This document shows positions 617-36,334 of a stretch of DNA of 40,464 nt, piece by piece. Position 1 is the first letter of the stretch. Each line of letters starts with the position of its first letter. Origin of the DNA: Candidatus Palauibacter australiensis. Its GTDB lineage: Bacteria > Gemmatimonadota > Gemmatimonadetes > Palauibacterales > Palauibacteraceae. A model generated the notes under the pieces. It did not search any database and was not told the DNA's origin. It saw nothing but the letters and a program-made list of their open reading frames with translations. The translations under genes were made by a program, and so were the position numbers. The stretch is from the NCBI GenBank assembly GCA_026705295.1, contig JAPPBA010000045.1, positions 1-40,464 on the forward strand, written 5' to 3'.

Positions 617-2025
617 CAGCAAGGCTGCCCCATGAAGGTCGCGCCGGTCGTCCCCGTGAGCCGCACCTGCGCGTACGTACCGATCCGGCAGGGGTCTCCG
701 GGGAAGGCGACGACCTTGTTCTGCTCCGTCCTGCCGAGCACGTCGCCCGGCGAACGCGCGGAGCGCTCGATCAGCACCTCGCGCCGCGAACCCACCTCGG
801 ATTCGTTGATCTCGCGCTGGATCGCGCGGTGCTCGCCGATCAGGCATTCCAGTCGCTTCGAGCCCACCTCGTCCGGCACGAAATCCGGGGCCGGGAAGCG
901 AGTGGCCGGCGTCCCTTCGCGCAGCGAGTACTTGTACAGATACGCATCGTCGAACCGCACCCCCCGCATCAGCTCCAGCGTGGCCTCGAAATCCGCCTCC
1001 GTCTCCCCCGGGAAGCCGACGATCACATCCGTGGAGAGCGCGATGCCGGGCACGTCGCGGCGGGCGGCCTCGACCTTCTCGAGGAACCCCTCGCTCGTGT
1101 AGCGCCGGACCATGCGCTTGAGGATGCGATCGGAGCCCGACTGCACGGGCAGGTGGAGCTGGCGGCAGATCGTCGGCTCCCCCGCCATTACCTTGAGCAG
1201 TTCCGGCGTCACATCGTTGGGATGGGGGGAGGTGAATCGGACACGGCGAATGCCGTCCACGCGGCTCACGGCCCGCAGCAGCGTCGCGAAGTTCCAGTCT
1301 CCGGACGTGTACGAGTTCACGGTCTGTCCGAGGAGCACGACTTCGGTGAACCCATCTTCCACGGCGCGCCGGGTTTCGGCGAGGACCGCCTCGGGCGTCC
1401 GGTTCTTCTCGGGTCCCCTCACATAGGGGACGATGCAGAAAGTGCAGCGATGATCGCAGCCGCGCTGGACCGTGATCCAGGCGCTTACGCCCTCCCGCCT
1501 CACGCTGTCCACGCCCTCGTAGTTCTCTTCCGCGTCGAGTCCGAGCAGCGTCTGTCCGCGCTCGATCGCGTTCGCCCGGATCGAACCGATGAGTGCCGGG
1601 AGAGCGCGGTAGGCGTCCGGCCCGGCCACCAGGTCCACGCCCGCTGCCTCCTCGATGAGCCTCGGGCCCAGCCGCTGCGCCATGCACCCCGTCACCCCCA
1701 GCACGAGGCCGGCGTGCCGCTTGCGGTGGCGTTGGAGTTCGCCGATCCGGCCGCGGACGCGCCTTTCCGCGTGCTCGCGAATCGCGCAGGTGTTCACGAG
1801 GATGACATCGGCGCGCTCGGGCGCGTCCACGCTCACGAAGCCCTCGTCGACGAGCAGCCCCTCCATCAACTCGGTGTCGTTGATGTTCATCTGACACCCG
1901 TAGGTCTCGATGTAGACGCGCCCTCCGAGCGGACGGGGGTCGCGGGGCCGATCCGCGCCGGGCGTCTTCAGGGTGACGAGCTTTGTCCTTTCCGGCTTTG
2001 TCCTTTCCAGCTTTGTCCCTTCCAT
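616..2025 (-). CDS. miaB: tRNA-2-methylthio-N6-dimethylallyladenosine synthase MiaB
   Basis: Radical-SAM methylthiotransferase that adds a methylthio group to i6A37 of tRNAs. The 469-residue product has the N-terminal MTTase domain with three cluster cysteines (C44 in YGCQMN, C80 in VNTC, C114 in VTGCMAQ), the radical-SAM CxxxCxxC (C190, C194, C197), and a C-terminal TRAM-type region (from about residue 400, with RTEQNKVV). The motifs match MiaB rather than RimO or MtaB. The ATG at 2025 lies 7 nt after the stop of the upstream outer-membrane gene and has no clear SD. Residues 2-17 are encoded by a 15-bp triplicate repeat and precede the conserved fold, so a start further downstream is possible. 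It ends in a TGATG overlap with the LapA-like gene. Confidence 0.95.
   Translation of the reverse strand: MEGTKLERTKPERTKLVTLKTPGADRPRDPRPLGGRVYIETYGCQMNINDTELMEGLLVDEGFVSVDAPERADVILVNTCAIREHAERRVRGRIGELQRHRKRHAGLVLGVTGCMAQRLGPRLIEEAAGVDLVAGPDAYRALPALIGSIRANAIERGQTLLGLDAEENYEGVDSVRREGVSAWITVQRGCDHRCTFCIVPYVRGPEKNRTPEAVLAETRRAVEDGFTEVVLLGQTVNSYTSGDWNFATLLRAVSRVDGIRRVRFTSPHPNDVTPELLKVMAGEPTICRQLHLPVQSGSDRILKRMVRRYTSEGFLEKVEAARRDVPGIALSTDVIVGFPGETEADFEATLELMRGVRFDDAYLYKYSLREGTPATRFPAPDFVPDEVGSKRLECLIGEHRAIQREINESEVGSRREVLIERSARSPGDVLGRTEQNKVVAFPGDPCRIGTYAQVRLTGTTGATFMGQPC
1981..2025. repeat. 15-bp tandem repeat, three copies, at the 5' end of miaB
   Basis: Three abutting 15-mers (1981-1995, 1996-2010, 2011-2025), beginning ctttgtcctttcc or ctttgtcccttcc on plus, encode EGTKL/ERTKP/ERTKL on minus. 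Each minus-strand unit carries an SD-like AAGGA or AAGGGA. Confidence 0.9.
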
Positions 2026-2032
2026 CGGTGGC

Positions 2033-3229
2033 TCAGCGCTGCCTGAGGGAGAAGGAGACGGTGACGCGCCGGAAGTTCTCCGCGAAGCCGACCGTAGCGA
2101 CGTCCCCGCGCGACCCGCTCTCGAAGGCGAGGTCGAATACGGCCAGTCCCTCCTGAAACTCCCAGCCGAAGCCGGCGGTGAAGGCGGATTCGTCGAGCGC
2201 TTCGGCACCCGGGCTGAAGGGGAGCCCCGTCCGCCGCCATCCGGCCCGAAGCGGCAACCGCCCGCCGAGCAGGGAGAGCGCGCCGTATTCGATCCCCCCG
2301 CCCAGCCAAGCGACATCGTGGGACTGGAACGCGGAGCCGGCCGCCGCGGCGCGCGACCCCACGGCCGACCACCCGGCCCGGCCACCGCCGGCGGTGACGA
2401 GGAGCTGGTCCGTCACGAGCACACTGCCGCCGAGTTCGATCGAGGTCGGCAGGTCGAAGTCCGCCTCGGGTTCCTCCGCCGCTTCGGGCGTCGCGTACAG
2501 TGTCCCTCCCGTCCCGAGTGACACCCCCGCCACGACGCGGTCCCCCAGACGGATCGATCCGCCCGCCCGGAAGCGCCAGGCTCTCCAAGACAGCTCCCTC
2601 GCCCCCACAATGCCGCCGAGCACGGGAGCCCCTCCGATCGGATCGTCGAACTGGCGGAAGAACGACTGCCGGAGCGAACCGGTCAGCCGCTGCGCCGAGA
2701 TCCCGACGCCCAGCGGCCCGAGGCGACGCGCAAGCGACAAGTCGATCGTGCTGATGCCGCCGTTGTGTTCCCGCGTCTCCTCGTAGGGCACCGCGCCGTC
2801 GTTCAGCCGCAACGTGTCCTGCAGGATGTTGGACCAATCCTGATCGAACTCGCCGCCGAAAGCCAGGCTGAAGGCCCAGTCGTTCTGCGGGACGAGCGCG
2901 CGGATCGTCGTGAAGCGTCCCCGGCCCGTGTCGATCGACCTGCTCTCGCCCTCCAGGGTCACGCCCTCGGTGGCCAGCGAGACGGAGAAGCCGGGTTCGG
3001 CGTGGAGCAGAAGGTCGGCCGGGTTCGTGAGACTGTACGATCCGCCGAGCAAACCGGAGCCCGATCCGCCGAGCGCGGCCGACCGCCCATCCACGGGCGC
3101 GACCGGATAGCCGAGCCCGATCGCCGTGAGCGGCGTCTGCGCCAGGACGGCAACGGGCGAAGCCGCCAGCGCGGCCAGGGCGAACCCGGCCCGGATCCAT
3201 CCGCGGAACCCTCGGGCGGCCGGCATCAC
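2033..3229 (-). CDS. Outer-membrane beta-barrel protein (PorV/FadL-like)
   Basis: A 398-residue protein with an N-terminal signal peptide (hydrophobic core about residues 13-28, ending VLAQT). A mature part follows of alternating short beta strands with many glycines and aromatics. It opens with GLGYPVAPVDGRSAALGG and has an SLTNPADLL element, the NPA-type signature seen in PorV/UPF0164 and FadL-like barrels. The last strand ends in VTVSFSLRQR. The start is GTG at 3229 or the adjacent ATG at 3226; both overlap the stop of the upstream lipoprotein gene (GTGATG). Location should be the outer membrane. Substrate is unknown; a transport or secretion-shuttle role is family inference only. Confidence 0.75.
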   Translation of the reverse strand: MMPAARGFRGWIRAGFALAALAASPVAVLAQTPLTAIGLGYPVAPVDGRSAALGGSGSGLLGGSYSLTNPADLLLHAEPGFSVSLATEGVTLEGESRSIDTGRGRFTTIRALVPQNDWAFSLAFGGEFDQDWSNILQDTLRLNDGAVPYEETREHNGGISTIDLSLARRLGPLGVGISAQRLTGSLRQSFFRQFDDPIGGAPVLGGIVGARELSWRAWRFRAGGSIRLGDRVVAGVSLGTGGTLYATPEAAEEPEADFDLPTSIELGGSVLVTDQLLVTAGGGRAGWSAVGSRAAAAGSAFQSHDVAWLGGGIEYGALSLLGGRLPLRAGWRRTGLPFSPGAEALDESAFTAGFGWEFQEGLAVFDLAFESGSRGDVATVGFAENFRRVTVSFSLRQR

Positions 3230-4458
3230 GGTACCGTGAAGTCCGGCGCCGAACTGAACACGATGCGGATCTGCGGCTGGAATTCCGGCGGCGATTCGGC
3301 GGAACCGAACTCCCAGTAGCCGAGCGCCTGCGCATCCGGATCCGCCCGGAAGCCGATCCGGATGCGCCTCAGCGAATCCAGGACGGCCCCCGCCATCAGG
3401 CGCGTGATGTCGAGGCGAACCGGCTCACCCTCGCGGAGTCGGGCGGGATCGAGCGTTGTCGTGACCAGGTCCCCGCTCCCGATCGGGGTCTTTTCGCCGG
3501 TCTCGAACGGGTCGCCTAGCAGACTCACCTTTCGGGCCTCGATCGTGCGCTCCGCCGCATGCAGATCGGGCGCGGCCAGCGGATGCAGGATGACCTCGGC
3601 CTGGCTGACCGTCGCCCCCTCGAGTCCCCCCTCCCCGTGGAGGCCGGGCGGCACGAACTCGAAGTAGATGCGCGAGGCGGGGAGACCGCCGACGCGAAGC
3701 TCCGTGCCGGTCGGAGGCTGTGGCGGATCCACGATGAACGCGTGCTCCTCCCAGAACTGGGACTGCGGAACCGGGAGGGTCCGCCCGACCAGGGTCGGAT
3801 CGTACCGGAGGACCATCTGTGCGACTCGGAGTTTCGTCTCGGGGCCGTCCAGCACGATGGCGAAGCCGTTGCCCCCGTCCTCCCTCTGCCACGCCTTCAT
3901 CAGCGAGTCCTCCGCCACGGCCGGCGTCATGAGGAGCGTATCCGAGACCGCCTCCAGCACCGCCGACGCGATCTCGACCCCGAGGCTGCCCCCGGGCTGT
4001 GTCCACGGAACCCCGGCGGTCGCCTCCTGCCACGTCGCGCGATGAGGCTCGAAACGCTCCCCCAGTTCGACGAGTTTCACTGTGACGGGAAACTCCGTGA
4101 ACTCCGAGCGGATCGTGTCCAGGCGGAGCAGGAACTCAACCTCCTCGAACCTCGCAACAGGCAGCGTGTCGACGAATGTCCGGATCGTGTCGGGGACGTT
4201 GAAGCGCGCGAGTCCGCGACTCGACACGTCCGTTCCGGCCGAGACGTAGACGAACGGCGCGGTGGATGGCCGGGCGAAGCCGGTCAGCGTCGTGTCGCGC
4301 CAGGACGGCAGATCGGAAACGGAGATGGTGACGTCCCGCGTCTCCACACCGGCGCCCGGCACGTTCTCGGAGCCCAGGGAGAGCGGGTCCTCCGCGCATG
4401 CGCCCAGCAACACCGGGAGGACCGTCGTGACGAGCGCCGCGAGTCTGCGTCCGTTCAC
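3226..4458 (-). CDS. Lipoprotein with DNRLRE-like beta domain
   Basis: A 410-residue product starting at a GTG that overlaps the cdd stop (GTGA, 4458-4455). The N-terminus is a lipoprotein signal with lipobox LLGAC (Cys about residue 20). The region at about residues 30-200 describes a strand-rich domain and contains the pattern W-x(2)-A-T-A-G-V-P-W-x(2)-P-G-G, typical of DNRLRE/CBM96-type domains in surface adhesion or carbohydrate-binding proteins. A second, similar half follows (about 260-400). The stop overlaps the start of the outer-membrane barrel gene, so the two are probably made together and may form an outer-membrane lipoprotein/barrel pair. Exact function is not recognisable. Confidence 0.7.
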   Translation of the reverse strand: MNGRRLAALVTTVLPVLLGACAEDPLSLGSENVPGAGVETRDVTISVSDLPSWRDTTLTGFARPSTAPFVYVSAGTDVSSRGLARFNVPDTIRTFVDTLPVARFEEVEFLLRLDTIRSEFTEFPVTVKLVELGERFEPHRATWQEATAGVPWTQPGGSLGVEIASAVLEAVSDTLLMTPAVAEDSLMKAWQREDGGNGFAIVLDGPETKLRVAQMVLRYDPTLVGRTLPVPQSQFWEEHAFIVDPPQPPTGTELRVGGLPASRIYFEFVPPGLHGEGGLEGATVSQAEVILHPLAAPDLHAAERTIEARKVSLLGDPFETGEKTPIGSGDLVTTTLDPARLREGEPVRLDITRLMAGAVLDSLRRIRIGFRADPDAQALGYWEFGSAESPPEFQPQIRIVFSSAPDFTVP

Positions 4459-33903: not shown

Positions 33904-34548
33904 TCACCGGTCGAGCAGCTTCTCCAAATCGCCCTCGGAGGCGGCGCCGACGATTCGGGCGTGTTCCGACACGAATGTCGGGGTCGCGGTGATCCGCCAG
34001 CGGTCGGCGAGCGCGGCGTCGCGGGCGAGGCGCTCGGTGGTCGCGGTCGAGTTCAGACAGCGGACGAGACGCGTTCCCGCGGGAACGTCCACCGCGATCG
34101 CGACCGACTCCCAGTCCACGTCTCCCGTCTCCCAAGCTTCGTTCATCATCAGGTAGTCGTGCATGCGCGCGAACGCTCCCTGCTTCTCCGCGCAGATCGC
34201 CGCGCGCGCCGCCTGGGCCGAACGGTCCGAGAGGGGCACGTGAACGAGCACGACCCTGGCCTCACCCGACGCCACCCACCCGTTCACGGTCTCGTGCGAT
34301 GAGCGACAGAAGGGACACAGGTAGTCGCTGAACTCGAAGATCGTCTGCGGGGCATCGCCGCTGCCGAGCACACTTGTTCGACCCGCGGCGGCCTGTCTCC
34401 CTTCCTCGCGATAGAGCGCGAGCACCTGCCGCTCGGCCCCCCACTCCCGCAGGCGGCCGCCGACCACCCCCGACGGACGGAAGGCGATCACCGCGAGGAG
34501 TAGGAAGCACACCCACAGACCGATGTCGTGGATCCCGGGTCGCTTCAC
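33904..34548 (-). CDS. Membrane-anchored DsbA-like thioredoxin
   Basis: A 214-residue protein with one N-terminal membrane helix (about 9-25), then a DsbA/Com1-like thioredoxin domain: FEFSDYLCPFCRSSHETVN holds the active-site pair C78/C81 (CPFC), and TATPTFV (about 187-193) the cis-proline loop. The helical insertion lies between. Fold and CPxC type suggest an oxidase or isomerase of periplasmic disulfides. Two further cysteines (AAICAEK and RCLNST) could form a second pair. Start GTG 34548 overlaps the stop of the beta-propeller gene (GTGA), so it is co-made with a lipoprotein and a Cys-rich peptide. Confidence 0.9.
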   Translation of the reverse strand: MKRPGIHDIGLWVCFLLLAVIAFRPSGVVGGRLREWGAERQVLALYREEGRQAAAGRTSVLGSGDAPQTIFEFSDYLCPFCRSSHETVNGWVASGEARVVLVHVPLSDRSAQAARAAICAEKQGAFARMHDYLMMNEAWETGDVDWESVAIAVDVPAGTRLVRCLNSTATTERLARDAALADRWRITATPTFVSEHARIVGAASEGDLEKLLDR

Positions 34549-35804
34549 GTCCCCGGTGCCCTCGCGCCCGCGGGCAGCGGCGCGATCAGGACGTGTTCGA
34601 CATCCAGCTCGTCCCGCACCACCCCGACCGCCTCCGTTTCGTCGGCCCAGAGCAGATCGAAGCCGCCGGGAAACTCGACGTTCACGGCGGGGCTTCCCGG
34701 CCCGGCGTACACGCTCCAGATCGAGATCTCGTCTTCGTCGCGCGGGGCGTCCGTTCGCGGCCGGTAACCGGTCGCCCAGGCGCGTCCGTCGGCGCCCGCA
34801 ATCACGCTCCCCAGCGGTGGGAAGGAGTCGGGCACCGCCCACACGTCGAGCGTGGCCGCCATGCGGGTTTGCAGTTGGGCCGGCAGGAGACGATCCATCT
34901 CGGCGCGGAGGGGAGCCAGCGCCATGTCCCGGTCCGCCGCGGACACGGGCATCGATGGGAGGGAGAAATCGATCGCGGCCACAGGCGTGCCGCTACTCGT
35001 CACCCGCTCCGCGCGCGGACGCGCCGTGGACCCGAACAGAAGGACGGAATCGCGCGGCAGCACAAACGGCTGAGGCGAGAACGGAATGCGGCCCGAAATG
35101 TACGAATCTCCGGGATAGCGGAAGACGCGGGTTCCCGTGGTCTCGGCGACCGGGGCGAAGCCCGCCCCCGCCGCCGACGTCAGGAAGATGACGATCTGCA
35201 GGGGATGGGACTCGCCCATCTCGTCGACGCGTCGGTCGGGCCTCGCCACCGCCCACACCAGCCGGCCGTCATCCAAGGCGCCGTGCAAGCGCGGGGATTG
35301 CAGGGTGTCCCCCGGAGGGATCGGGATCCCGACGCGCCGCACACCCGCGCCGGTGTACGGCCAGACGGACGCGCCCCCCCGCGCCTCGTCGTAGACGACC
35401 ACGGAATCGCCGCGGTATCCGAAGAGCGCCGTCAGTTCGCCGAACTCACGCGGACCGCCGCCCACGCCGCCGCGGGTCTCGCGCCACGCCCCATCGAGCG
35501 TGAACGTGCGCAGCGTGGCGTCGCCCCGGTTCGCGACGACCAGCACACCGGCCGGCCGGTCCACGACCACGCCGGCGATGTCGTGGAAATCCGTCCGCCC
35601 ATCCCCGGACGCGCTTCCGAGCCGCAGGCGGAGCGGCCCCGCGCGAAGGTGCGCGGGGTCCGCTCCGAAGTCCGTTCCCGGATCCGCCGAGGCGGCCGTG
35701 TCGGTACGGCGATCCTCTGCCAGACATGCGGCGGCCAGCATCGCCGCCGCGAGTGTCGTCCAGTGCCGGGGCCGCGCCCCGGCCCCCGCTGCACGGAGTT
35801 TCAT
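34545..35804 (-). CDS. Lipoprotein beta-propeller (6-bladed type)
   Basis: A 419-residue lipoprotein (lipobox AAAC, Cys27). The mature part (about 60-410) shows repeated blade-like units: FHDIAGVVVDRPAGVLVVANRGDATLRTF, ELTALFGYRGDSVVVYDEA, then FPPLGSVIAGADGRAWATGY and DELDVEHVLIAPL. These resemble 6-bladed TolB/NHL-like propellers of Gemmatimonadota and Bacteroidota. Such propellers usually bind peptides or sugars rather than catalyse. Start ATG 35804 has GAGGA 7 nt upstream. It lies 10 bp after the Cys-rich peptide gene and overlaps the DsbA-like gene. Confidence 0.78.
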   Translation of the reverse strand: MKLRAAGAGARPRHWTTLAAAMLAAACLAEDRRTDTAASADPGTDFGADPAHLRAGPLRLRLGSASGDGRTDFHDIAGVVVDRPAGVLVVANRGDATLRTFTLDGAWRETRGGVGGGPREFGELTALFGYRGDSVVVYDEARGGASVWPYTGAGVRRVGIPIPPGDTLQSPRLHGALDDGRLVWAVARPDRRVDEMGESHPLQIVIFLTSAAGAGFAPVAETTGTRVFRYPGDSYISGRIPFSPQPFVLPRDSVLLFGSTARPRAERVTSSGTPVAAIDFSLPSMPVSAADRDMALAPLRAEMDRLLPAQLQTRMAATLDVWAVPDSFPPLGSVIAGADGRAWATGYRPRTDAPRDEDEISIWSVYAGPGSPAVNVEFPGGFDLLWADETEAVGVVRDELDVEHVLIAPLPAGARAPGT

Positions 35805-35814
35805 GTCATCGTCC

Positions 35815-36060
35815 TCAAAGGAGATGGGGATCCGAAGGAGGACCCCAAGTGGGGAAAAAGCATCCTCGCAGGCATTCGTTGACTTCGTAACTGCAGCCCC
35901 ACTCACCGTCCAGGACGCAGTCCGACCAATCTCGAATACAGTCCGTCTGGCAGTCGTCGGCGCGCGCGGACGCGGCCCGGCCGGGTTGCGCCAGGATGGC
36001 CGTGGCCAGCACGAGGTTGAAGCCAAGGAGTACCCAGCGTCCCGCTTTCGTCGTCTTCAT
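35815..36060 (-). CDS. Secreted six-cysteine peptide
   Basis: An 81-residue product with a strong signal peptide (RWVLLGFNLVLATAILAQPGRAASA) and a mature part of about 47 residues. Six cysteines at 37, 41, 48, 56, 63 and 67 give the mirror-symmetric spacing C-x3-C-x6-C-x7-C-x6-C-x3-C, suited to a disulfide-stapled helical hairpin. GGAGG lies 5 nt before ATG 36060. No family is recognised. It is the first gene of a unit with a propeller lipoprotein and a DsbA-like oxidase, which could bind it and fold it respectively. This is inference from arrangement. Confidence 0.75.
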   Translation of the reverse strand: MKTTKAGRWVLLGFNLVLATAILAQPGRAASARADDCQTDCIRDWSDCVLDGEWGCSYEVNECLRGCFFPTWGPPSDPHLL

Positions 36061-36137
36061 CGTCCCCTCCCATTCCCGGGTCGCCGGAAGGCCGGATCGC
36101 GGCCGCCATGGTCGTTGGCGCGCTCGTCGCGACCCTC

Positions 36138-36158
36138 CGGGACGGACCCTCCGTCCCG
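36138..36158. promoter_or_regulatory. 9-bp-stem hairpin in the Cys-peptide / NmrA intergenic region
   Basis: CGGGACGGA and its inverse (36138-36146 / 36150-36158) flank a CCC loop. There is no T-tract on either side, so a leader structure or operator is more likely than a terminator. It lies about 80 nt upstream of the Cys-rich peptide start. Confidence 0.45.
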
Positions 36159-36191
36159 TGCCTTCCGAGATTCACCCTCCAGAGTCCGGCC

Positions 36192-36212
36192 GGCTATCAA
36201 CGGGCTATCAAC
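36192..36212. repeat. Direct repeat GGCTATCAAC, two copies, 11-bp phase
   Basis: Exact copies at 36192-36201 and 36203-36212, one helical turn apart, between the Cys-peptide gene and the NmrA-like gene. The layout would suit a dimeric regulator on one DNA face. Function is unproven. Confidence 0.6.
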
Positions 36213-36334
36213 TCGCTCGCGGCCGGGGGCCGGCCGGGGGCTGGCAGGAGTCACGCCGGACGGCACTCGCCTCCCCTCCGCAGGCCACGTATCGTCGGAA
36301 CTTCACGGAATCGCGGGACGACAGGAGGGCGTGG

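Follow-up and report, generated by a model that had tools for sequence, protein, structure and literature searches.

A compact cassette of three genes, encoding an exported six-cysteine peptide, a beta-propeller lipoprotein and a DsbA-like thiol oxidoreductase, was found in Candidatus Palauibacter (Gemmatimonadota), and it appears fairly likely that the three form one functional unit for the oxidative folding of an exported disulfide-rich peptide. This assessment covers the unit and the folding; the downstream role of the peptide is considered separately. The window, i.e. the whole stretch of DNA that was analysed (40,464 nucleotides), belongs to a 3.58-Mb draft genome that is 95.5% complete, and statements on this genome beyond the window rest on searches of its contigs. 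Palauibacter is a marine genus, mostly from sponges and corals, and among the same-genus matches there are contigs labelled Candidatus Palauibacter denitrificans, poriticola and rhopaloidicola. The habitats of the order Palauibacterales comprise sponges, corals, marine sediments and saline soils (PMC10469786).

All three genes are read from the minus strand. The peptide gene (P0001, 81 aa; 35815-36060) is separated by 10 bp (35805-35814) from the propeller gene (P0002, 419 aa; 34545-35804), which overlaps by GTGA (34545-34548) with the gene of the DsbA-like protein (P0003, 214 aa, GTG start; 33904-34548). These coordinates agree with the first-pass annotation, which had reported three same-strand genes with this gap and overlap; the spacing C-x3-C-x6-C-x7-C-x6-C-x3-C that it had read in the peptide, and the CPFC and TPTF motifs in the third gene, are likewise present. 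P0001 is the sole ORF on either strand of the window that combines a signal with at least four cysteines in 45-125 aa. Searches of the source genome found no such cysteine peptide alongside its other propellers; on one contig (L057, G000:C61) several lipoprotein-like propeller genes are arranged near-tandem without cysteine peptides.

P0001 consists of a signal-like leader (about residues 1-32), followed by the core CQTDCIRDWSDCVLDGEWGCSYEVNECLRGC with the cysteines C37-C41-C48-C56-C63-C67. The six cysteines are invariant in all 12 congeneric genomes that carry the peptide, and the export proposed at first reading is supported by the leader. Among the genus orthologues the leader is nearly invariant in its amino acids, whereas the mature non-cysteine positions vary (pN 0.015 in the leader versus 0.178 in the rest of the gene). 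Silent sites in the leader also changed little (pS 0.10 versus 0.36), but this signal is weak because 5 of 117 windows in neighbouring genes (about 4%) are equally low, and an exceptional silent-site conservation of the leader DNA was rejected. In the AlphaFold2 model two helices (26-50 and 57-68) cover the cysteine-bearing segments, with a pLDDT of about 74-85 in the core and only 63 overall. Foldseek with this model yielded no significant fold match in the PDB, and P0001 matched no Pfam or NCBIfam family at E-values up to 1; P0004 had no match among plasmids. The peptide cores are acidic (charge about -3 to -7), which disfavours a membrane-lysing, cationic antimicrobial peptide.

The propeller lipoprotein P0002 carries a slightly weak lipobox, LAAAC, of which the cysteine (Cys27) is invariant and the sole cysteine in 9 of 9 orthologues. 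P0002 itself has no match in Pfam. A PDB search with its family profile retrieved NHL propellers of the six-bladed kind (E about 0.001), and the counterparts of P0002 in equivalent cassettes match PF17170 ('6-bladed beta-propeller'). Its AlphaFold model is unusable for docking, with a pLDDT of only 32. P0003 is a member of the DsbA/Thioredoxin_4 group by family match (PF13462, E 6e-19, and DSBA, PF01323, E 5e-10, both above cut-off), CxxC motif (CPFC) and cis-Pro loop (TPTF), and has an N-terminal membrane anchor. The nearest solved structures are of the DsbA, BdbD and DsbG type, and the solved relatives include some copper-resistance Dsb-like proteins.

The peptide is present in 12 of the 17 Palauibacter genomes. 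Wherever the contig permits it adjoins the DsbA gene, and in all but one genome it adjoins the propeller gene. The exception is G026, where the propeller is missing and the peptide and DsbA genes are about 70 bp apart; the propeller is hence not strictly obligatory. Wherever else the contig extends, the order and strand peptide-propeller-DsbA are kept; the expected conservation of gene order thus holds across the genus, save for the propeller of G026. Since the propeller and DsbA genes of G021 sit at a contig end, the cassette is probably present in 13 of the 17 genomes. Its absence from the other four counts against a functional unit. One draft (G019) contains two copies of the peptide locus (L040 and L024), one of them at a contig end, reflecting either a duplication or a mixed bin.

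A DNA alignment of 12 loci revealed a conserved stretch 5' of the peptide gene (36061-36220, minus strand), a possible 5' regulatory region. It includes a palindrome conserved in the genus, GGGACGGA-GGG-TCCGTCCC (window positions 36130-36160), some 100 nt 5' of the start of the peptide gene. As an RNA hairpin this element has essentially no covariation support in the 12 aligned loci and no match in Rfam; perhaps it is an operator.

Profile searches extended the six-cysteine peptides to other genera of the family and to a second family of the order. The peptides of these other Palauibacterales are encoded two in tandem, with type A (CX3C-X7-C-X7-C-X6-CX3C) followed by type B (CX3C-X6-C-(longer loop)-C-X6-CX3C). 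The six cysteines are the only columns free of any variation when 30 of these wider peptides are aligned, and hhalign linked the Palauibacter peptide profile to type A (79%, E 1.6e-5) and type A to type B (98%). In all ten assessable genomes a gene for a membrane-anchored thioredoxin-fold protein with a CxxC motif (CPAC, CPSC or similar) ends just upstream of the A/B pair. The DsbA partner proposed at first reading applies to Palauibacter and to family f6; the other genera of the order usually have a TlpA/Redoxin-like thioredoxin. That the peptides are linked independently to enzymes of the DsbA type and of the TlpA type argues for thiol chemistry on the peptide as the purpose of the association. 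In the genera g2-g4 the propeller is not part of the peptides' operon, which counts against a functional unit of all three genes.

In f2, which is the second family, four complete loci (L108:6958-10931, L105, L104 and L106) have an operon in which a thioredoxin gene is followed by A, B, a propeller, an ABC ATPase and a probable permease, and the order from peptide B onward recurs on a fifth contig, which is partial. Both f2 propellers tested match PF17170 above cut-off; the probable permease had no family match. A Fur gene follows the f2 operon, perhaps by chance. In f6, a third family, the propeller orthologues are 41-44% and the DsbA proteins 51-53% identical to P0002 and P0003, respectively; peptide, propeller and DsbA occur in the same order at three of five loci, and peptide plus propeller at one more, with flanking genes that differ from those in Palauibacter. 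Eight cysteines are found in the f6 peptide, the leader of which can be aligned to that of Palauibacter (VLxGxNLxL). The orthologous propeller of G214 has neither peptide nor DsbA beside it, again counting against a functional unit. The conserved cassette of peptide, propeller and oxidase proposed at the outset is nevertheless retained across families, and homologues with conserved cysteines do lie beside propeller and DsbA genes. At L195:1119-4309 two more pairs of a secreted cysteine peptide and a propeller-like ORF stand in tandem beside a peptide-propeller-DsbA triad; these partner ORFs have no match in Pfam. Weak profile matches across the class were mostly noise, and several led to cysteine peptides beside propellers or thioredoxins.

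Enzyme and propeller are also found joined in a single protein. In G022 (L026:2650-4473) a single protein of 607 aa joins a second DsbA-like domain, confirmed by Pfam, to a propeller-like domain. The C-terminal half has no Pfam match of its own; it can be aligned to separate ORFs of propeller size from the same genomes, and its homologues coincide in part with propeller matches. About 15 natural DsbA-propeller fusions were found in 14 genomes of two families (G022, G019, G024, G025, G026, G256, G096, G175, G264, G219, G090, G196, G355 and G394), and in G250 and G093 the two halves are adjacent genes. Immediately upstream of many fusion genes a secreted peptide with six to eight cysteines is encoded. 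In loci picked by similarity to the fusion enzyme, regardless of peptides, a secreted cysteine-rich peptide (signal, 45-125 aa, at least four cysteines, same strand, within 600 nt) was found beside 14 of 21, nearly always upstream, compared with 0 of 20 for loci centred on other propellers and with 1.2% upon random placement; these counts are not independent, as many of the genomes are related. The scripted count of 15 of 21 was lowered by one because in L026 the match belongs to the contig's main cassette and not to the fusion. The fusion-linked peptides mostly share a framework other than that of P0001, C-x(5-7)-C-x2-C-...-C-x4-C-...-C, so that the context is common to different peptide families. 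A second cassette in P. rhopaloidicola, with the order peptide, DsbA, propeller, peptide, displays a different cysteine framework. Upstream of another DsbA-like gene (L230 in G175, 1446-3572) there are three near-identical secreted eight-cysteine peptides with a CCWLD motif.

The fusions and the recurrent adjacency of peptides fit the first-pass proposal that the oxidase staples the peptide and the propeller binds it. Judging from the leader, the peptide would cross the membrane by Sec and then be oxidised by the membrane-anchored DsbA-like protein, although P0003 could be a reductase or isomerase instead of an oxidase. Since the propeller has a single cysteine, used for lipidation, the peptide is the only multi-cysteine partner of the enzyme within the cassette. 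The likely disulfides are C37-C67, C41-C63 and C48-C56, which would zip the two modelled helices into an antiparallel hairpin; cysteines at i, i+4 and i+11 would lie on one face of a helix and be mirrored in the second, making three rungs a natural arrangement. The membrane-held propeller may bind the peptide, either to present it to the enzyme or to retain or display it, or for both purposes. As to the peptide itself, a role as extracellular effector or signal is judged somewhat likelier than one in structure alone.

The same kit of parts, a small cysteine-rich protein, a propeller and a dedicated thioredoxin-fold protein, is known from the methylamine dehydrogenase genes, where mauA encodes the light chain, mauB the seven-bladed propeller of the heavy chain and mauD accompanies them. 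The peptide could thus be the small subunit, and the propeller the large subunit, of an extracytoplasmic redox or substrate-binding complex with dedicated Dsb-like maturation, and the tryptophans are in line with this: W45 and W72 do not vary within the genus, and f6 peptides likewise place one tryptophan between cysteines and another at the C-terminus. These residues are not kept in the type A and B peptides, however, the peptide frameworks differ widely among cassettes, no cytochrome gene was noticed in the cassette, and neither the peptide (light-chain) nor the propeller (heavy-chain) matches a methylamine dehydrogenase family in Pfam, the peptide profile having no convincing relative in the PDB either; we consider such a complex unlikely. 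The differing frameworks also speak against a metal-binding role, in which the peptide would be a copper or zinc chaperone or scavenger with metal-binding cysteines kept reduced by the thioredoxin-fold protein. Twin-cysteine helical hairpins do serve small metal or redox carriers, and the copper-resistance proteins among the relatives of P0003 and the possibly fortuitous Fur gene point the same way, but the peptides have no conserved His or Met ligands and the combination of CPFC and TPTF resembles the oxidising DsbA/BdbD, so that this role seems quite improbable.

There is, finally, the view that the three are only loosely linked and adjacent by chance: a DsbA with a housekeeping function, a propeller lipoprotein of a common kind and a small protein that is secreted. 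Such propellers are very abundant in these genomes, most of them without a peptide, and the solitary propeller of G214 would be expected under loose linkage. The order conserved across families despite different flanks, the existence of fusion proteins and the excess of peptides at fusion-similar loci over the controls all argue to the contrary, and we regard chance adjacency as very improbable indeed.

Beyond the functional unit for oxidative folding favoured here, we tentatively suggest, with somewhat less than even confidence, a widespread modular system of the Gemmatimonadota, in which many unrelated cysteine-peptide frameworks would each be served by a dedicated oxidase whose substrate-binding module is a beta-propeller, either a separate lipoprotein or fused, and which would yield diversifying secreted or surface-displayed disulfide peptides, with marine-invertebrate symbionts among the bacteria that carry it. 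The novelty is the DsbA enzyme paired or fused with a propeller at peptide loci. If true, this would be a new bacterial route to disulfide-rich peptides with a propeller as the substrate receptor of a DsbA-type enzyme, would offer a first testable role for some of the very common class of propeller lipoproteins, and would open a path to many uncharacterised disulfide peptides of uncultured symbionts. The paper on the Palauibacterales makes no mention of cysteine, disulfide or propeller (PMC10469786). In agreement with the first-pass annotation, which knew of no description of this version, a search of open-licence PMC articles, a scope that leaves novelty short of proven, found no published account of the cassette.

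Several known systems share elements with the cassette. In Bacteroidota, NVEALA peptides adjoin 6-bladed propellers, and like P0001 these are short, exported, cysteine-bearing and located beside a PF17170-type propeller; P0001 is found in another phylum, with a dedicated oxidase. As P0001 has no Pfam or NCBIfam match, the likeness drawn at first reading is an analogy only, and the word 'NVEALA' was not found in the open-licence PMC literature. Some bacteriocin operons contain their own thiol oxidoreductase, such as PedC for pediocin and BdbB for sublancin, and thus also place a dedicated thioredoxin-fold enzyme beside an exported cysteine peptide. Those operons lack a propeller, whereas the cassette combines a leader of the Sec type with a lipoprotein propeller and contains no immunity gene that could be recognised; its proteins match no recognised bacteriocin or immunity family in Pfam or NCBIfam. 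The alpha-hairpinins, plant antimicrobial peptides with the motif C-X3-C-Xn-C-X3-C and a 6C form C-X3-C-X3-C-X4-20-C-X3-C-X3-C (PMC11591084), share with P0001 the mirror-symmetric CX3C ends, which in P0001 may fall on a helix-loop-helix, as predicted by a model of low overall score; the likeness is one of motif. P0001 is bacterial, has an acidic core atypical of antimicrobial peptides and, with its spacing CX3C-X6-C-X7-C-X6-CX3C, fits neither the 6C motif nor the 4C motif CX3C-X4-20-CX3C without inner cysteines, two extra cysteines being placed at X6/X7/X6. The methylamine dehydrogenase set comes close in its composition of a small cysteine-rich protein, a propeller and a dedicated Dsb-like protein, whereas the cassette is set apart by a propeller related to the six-bladed NHL type, by variable peptides and by the fusion of Dsb-like enzyme and propeller.
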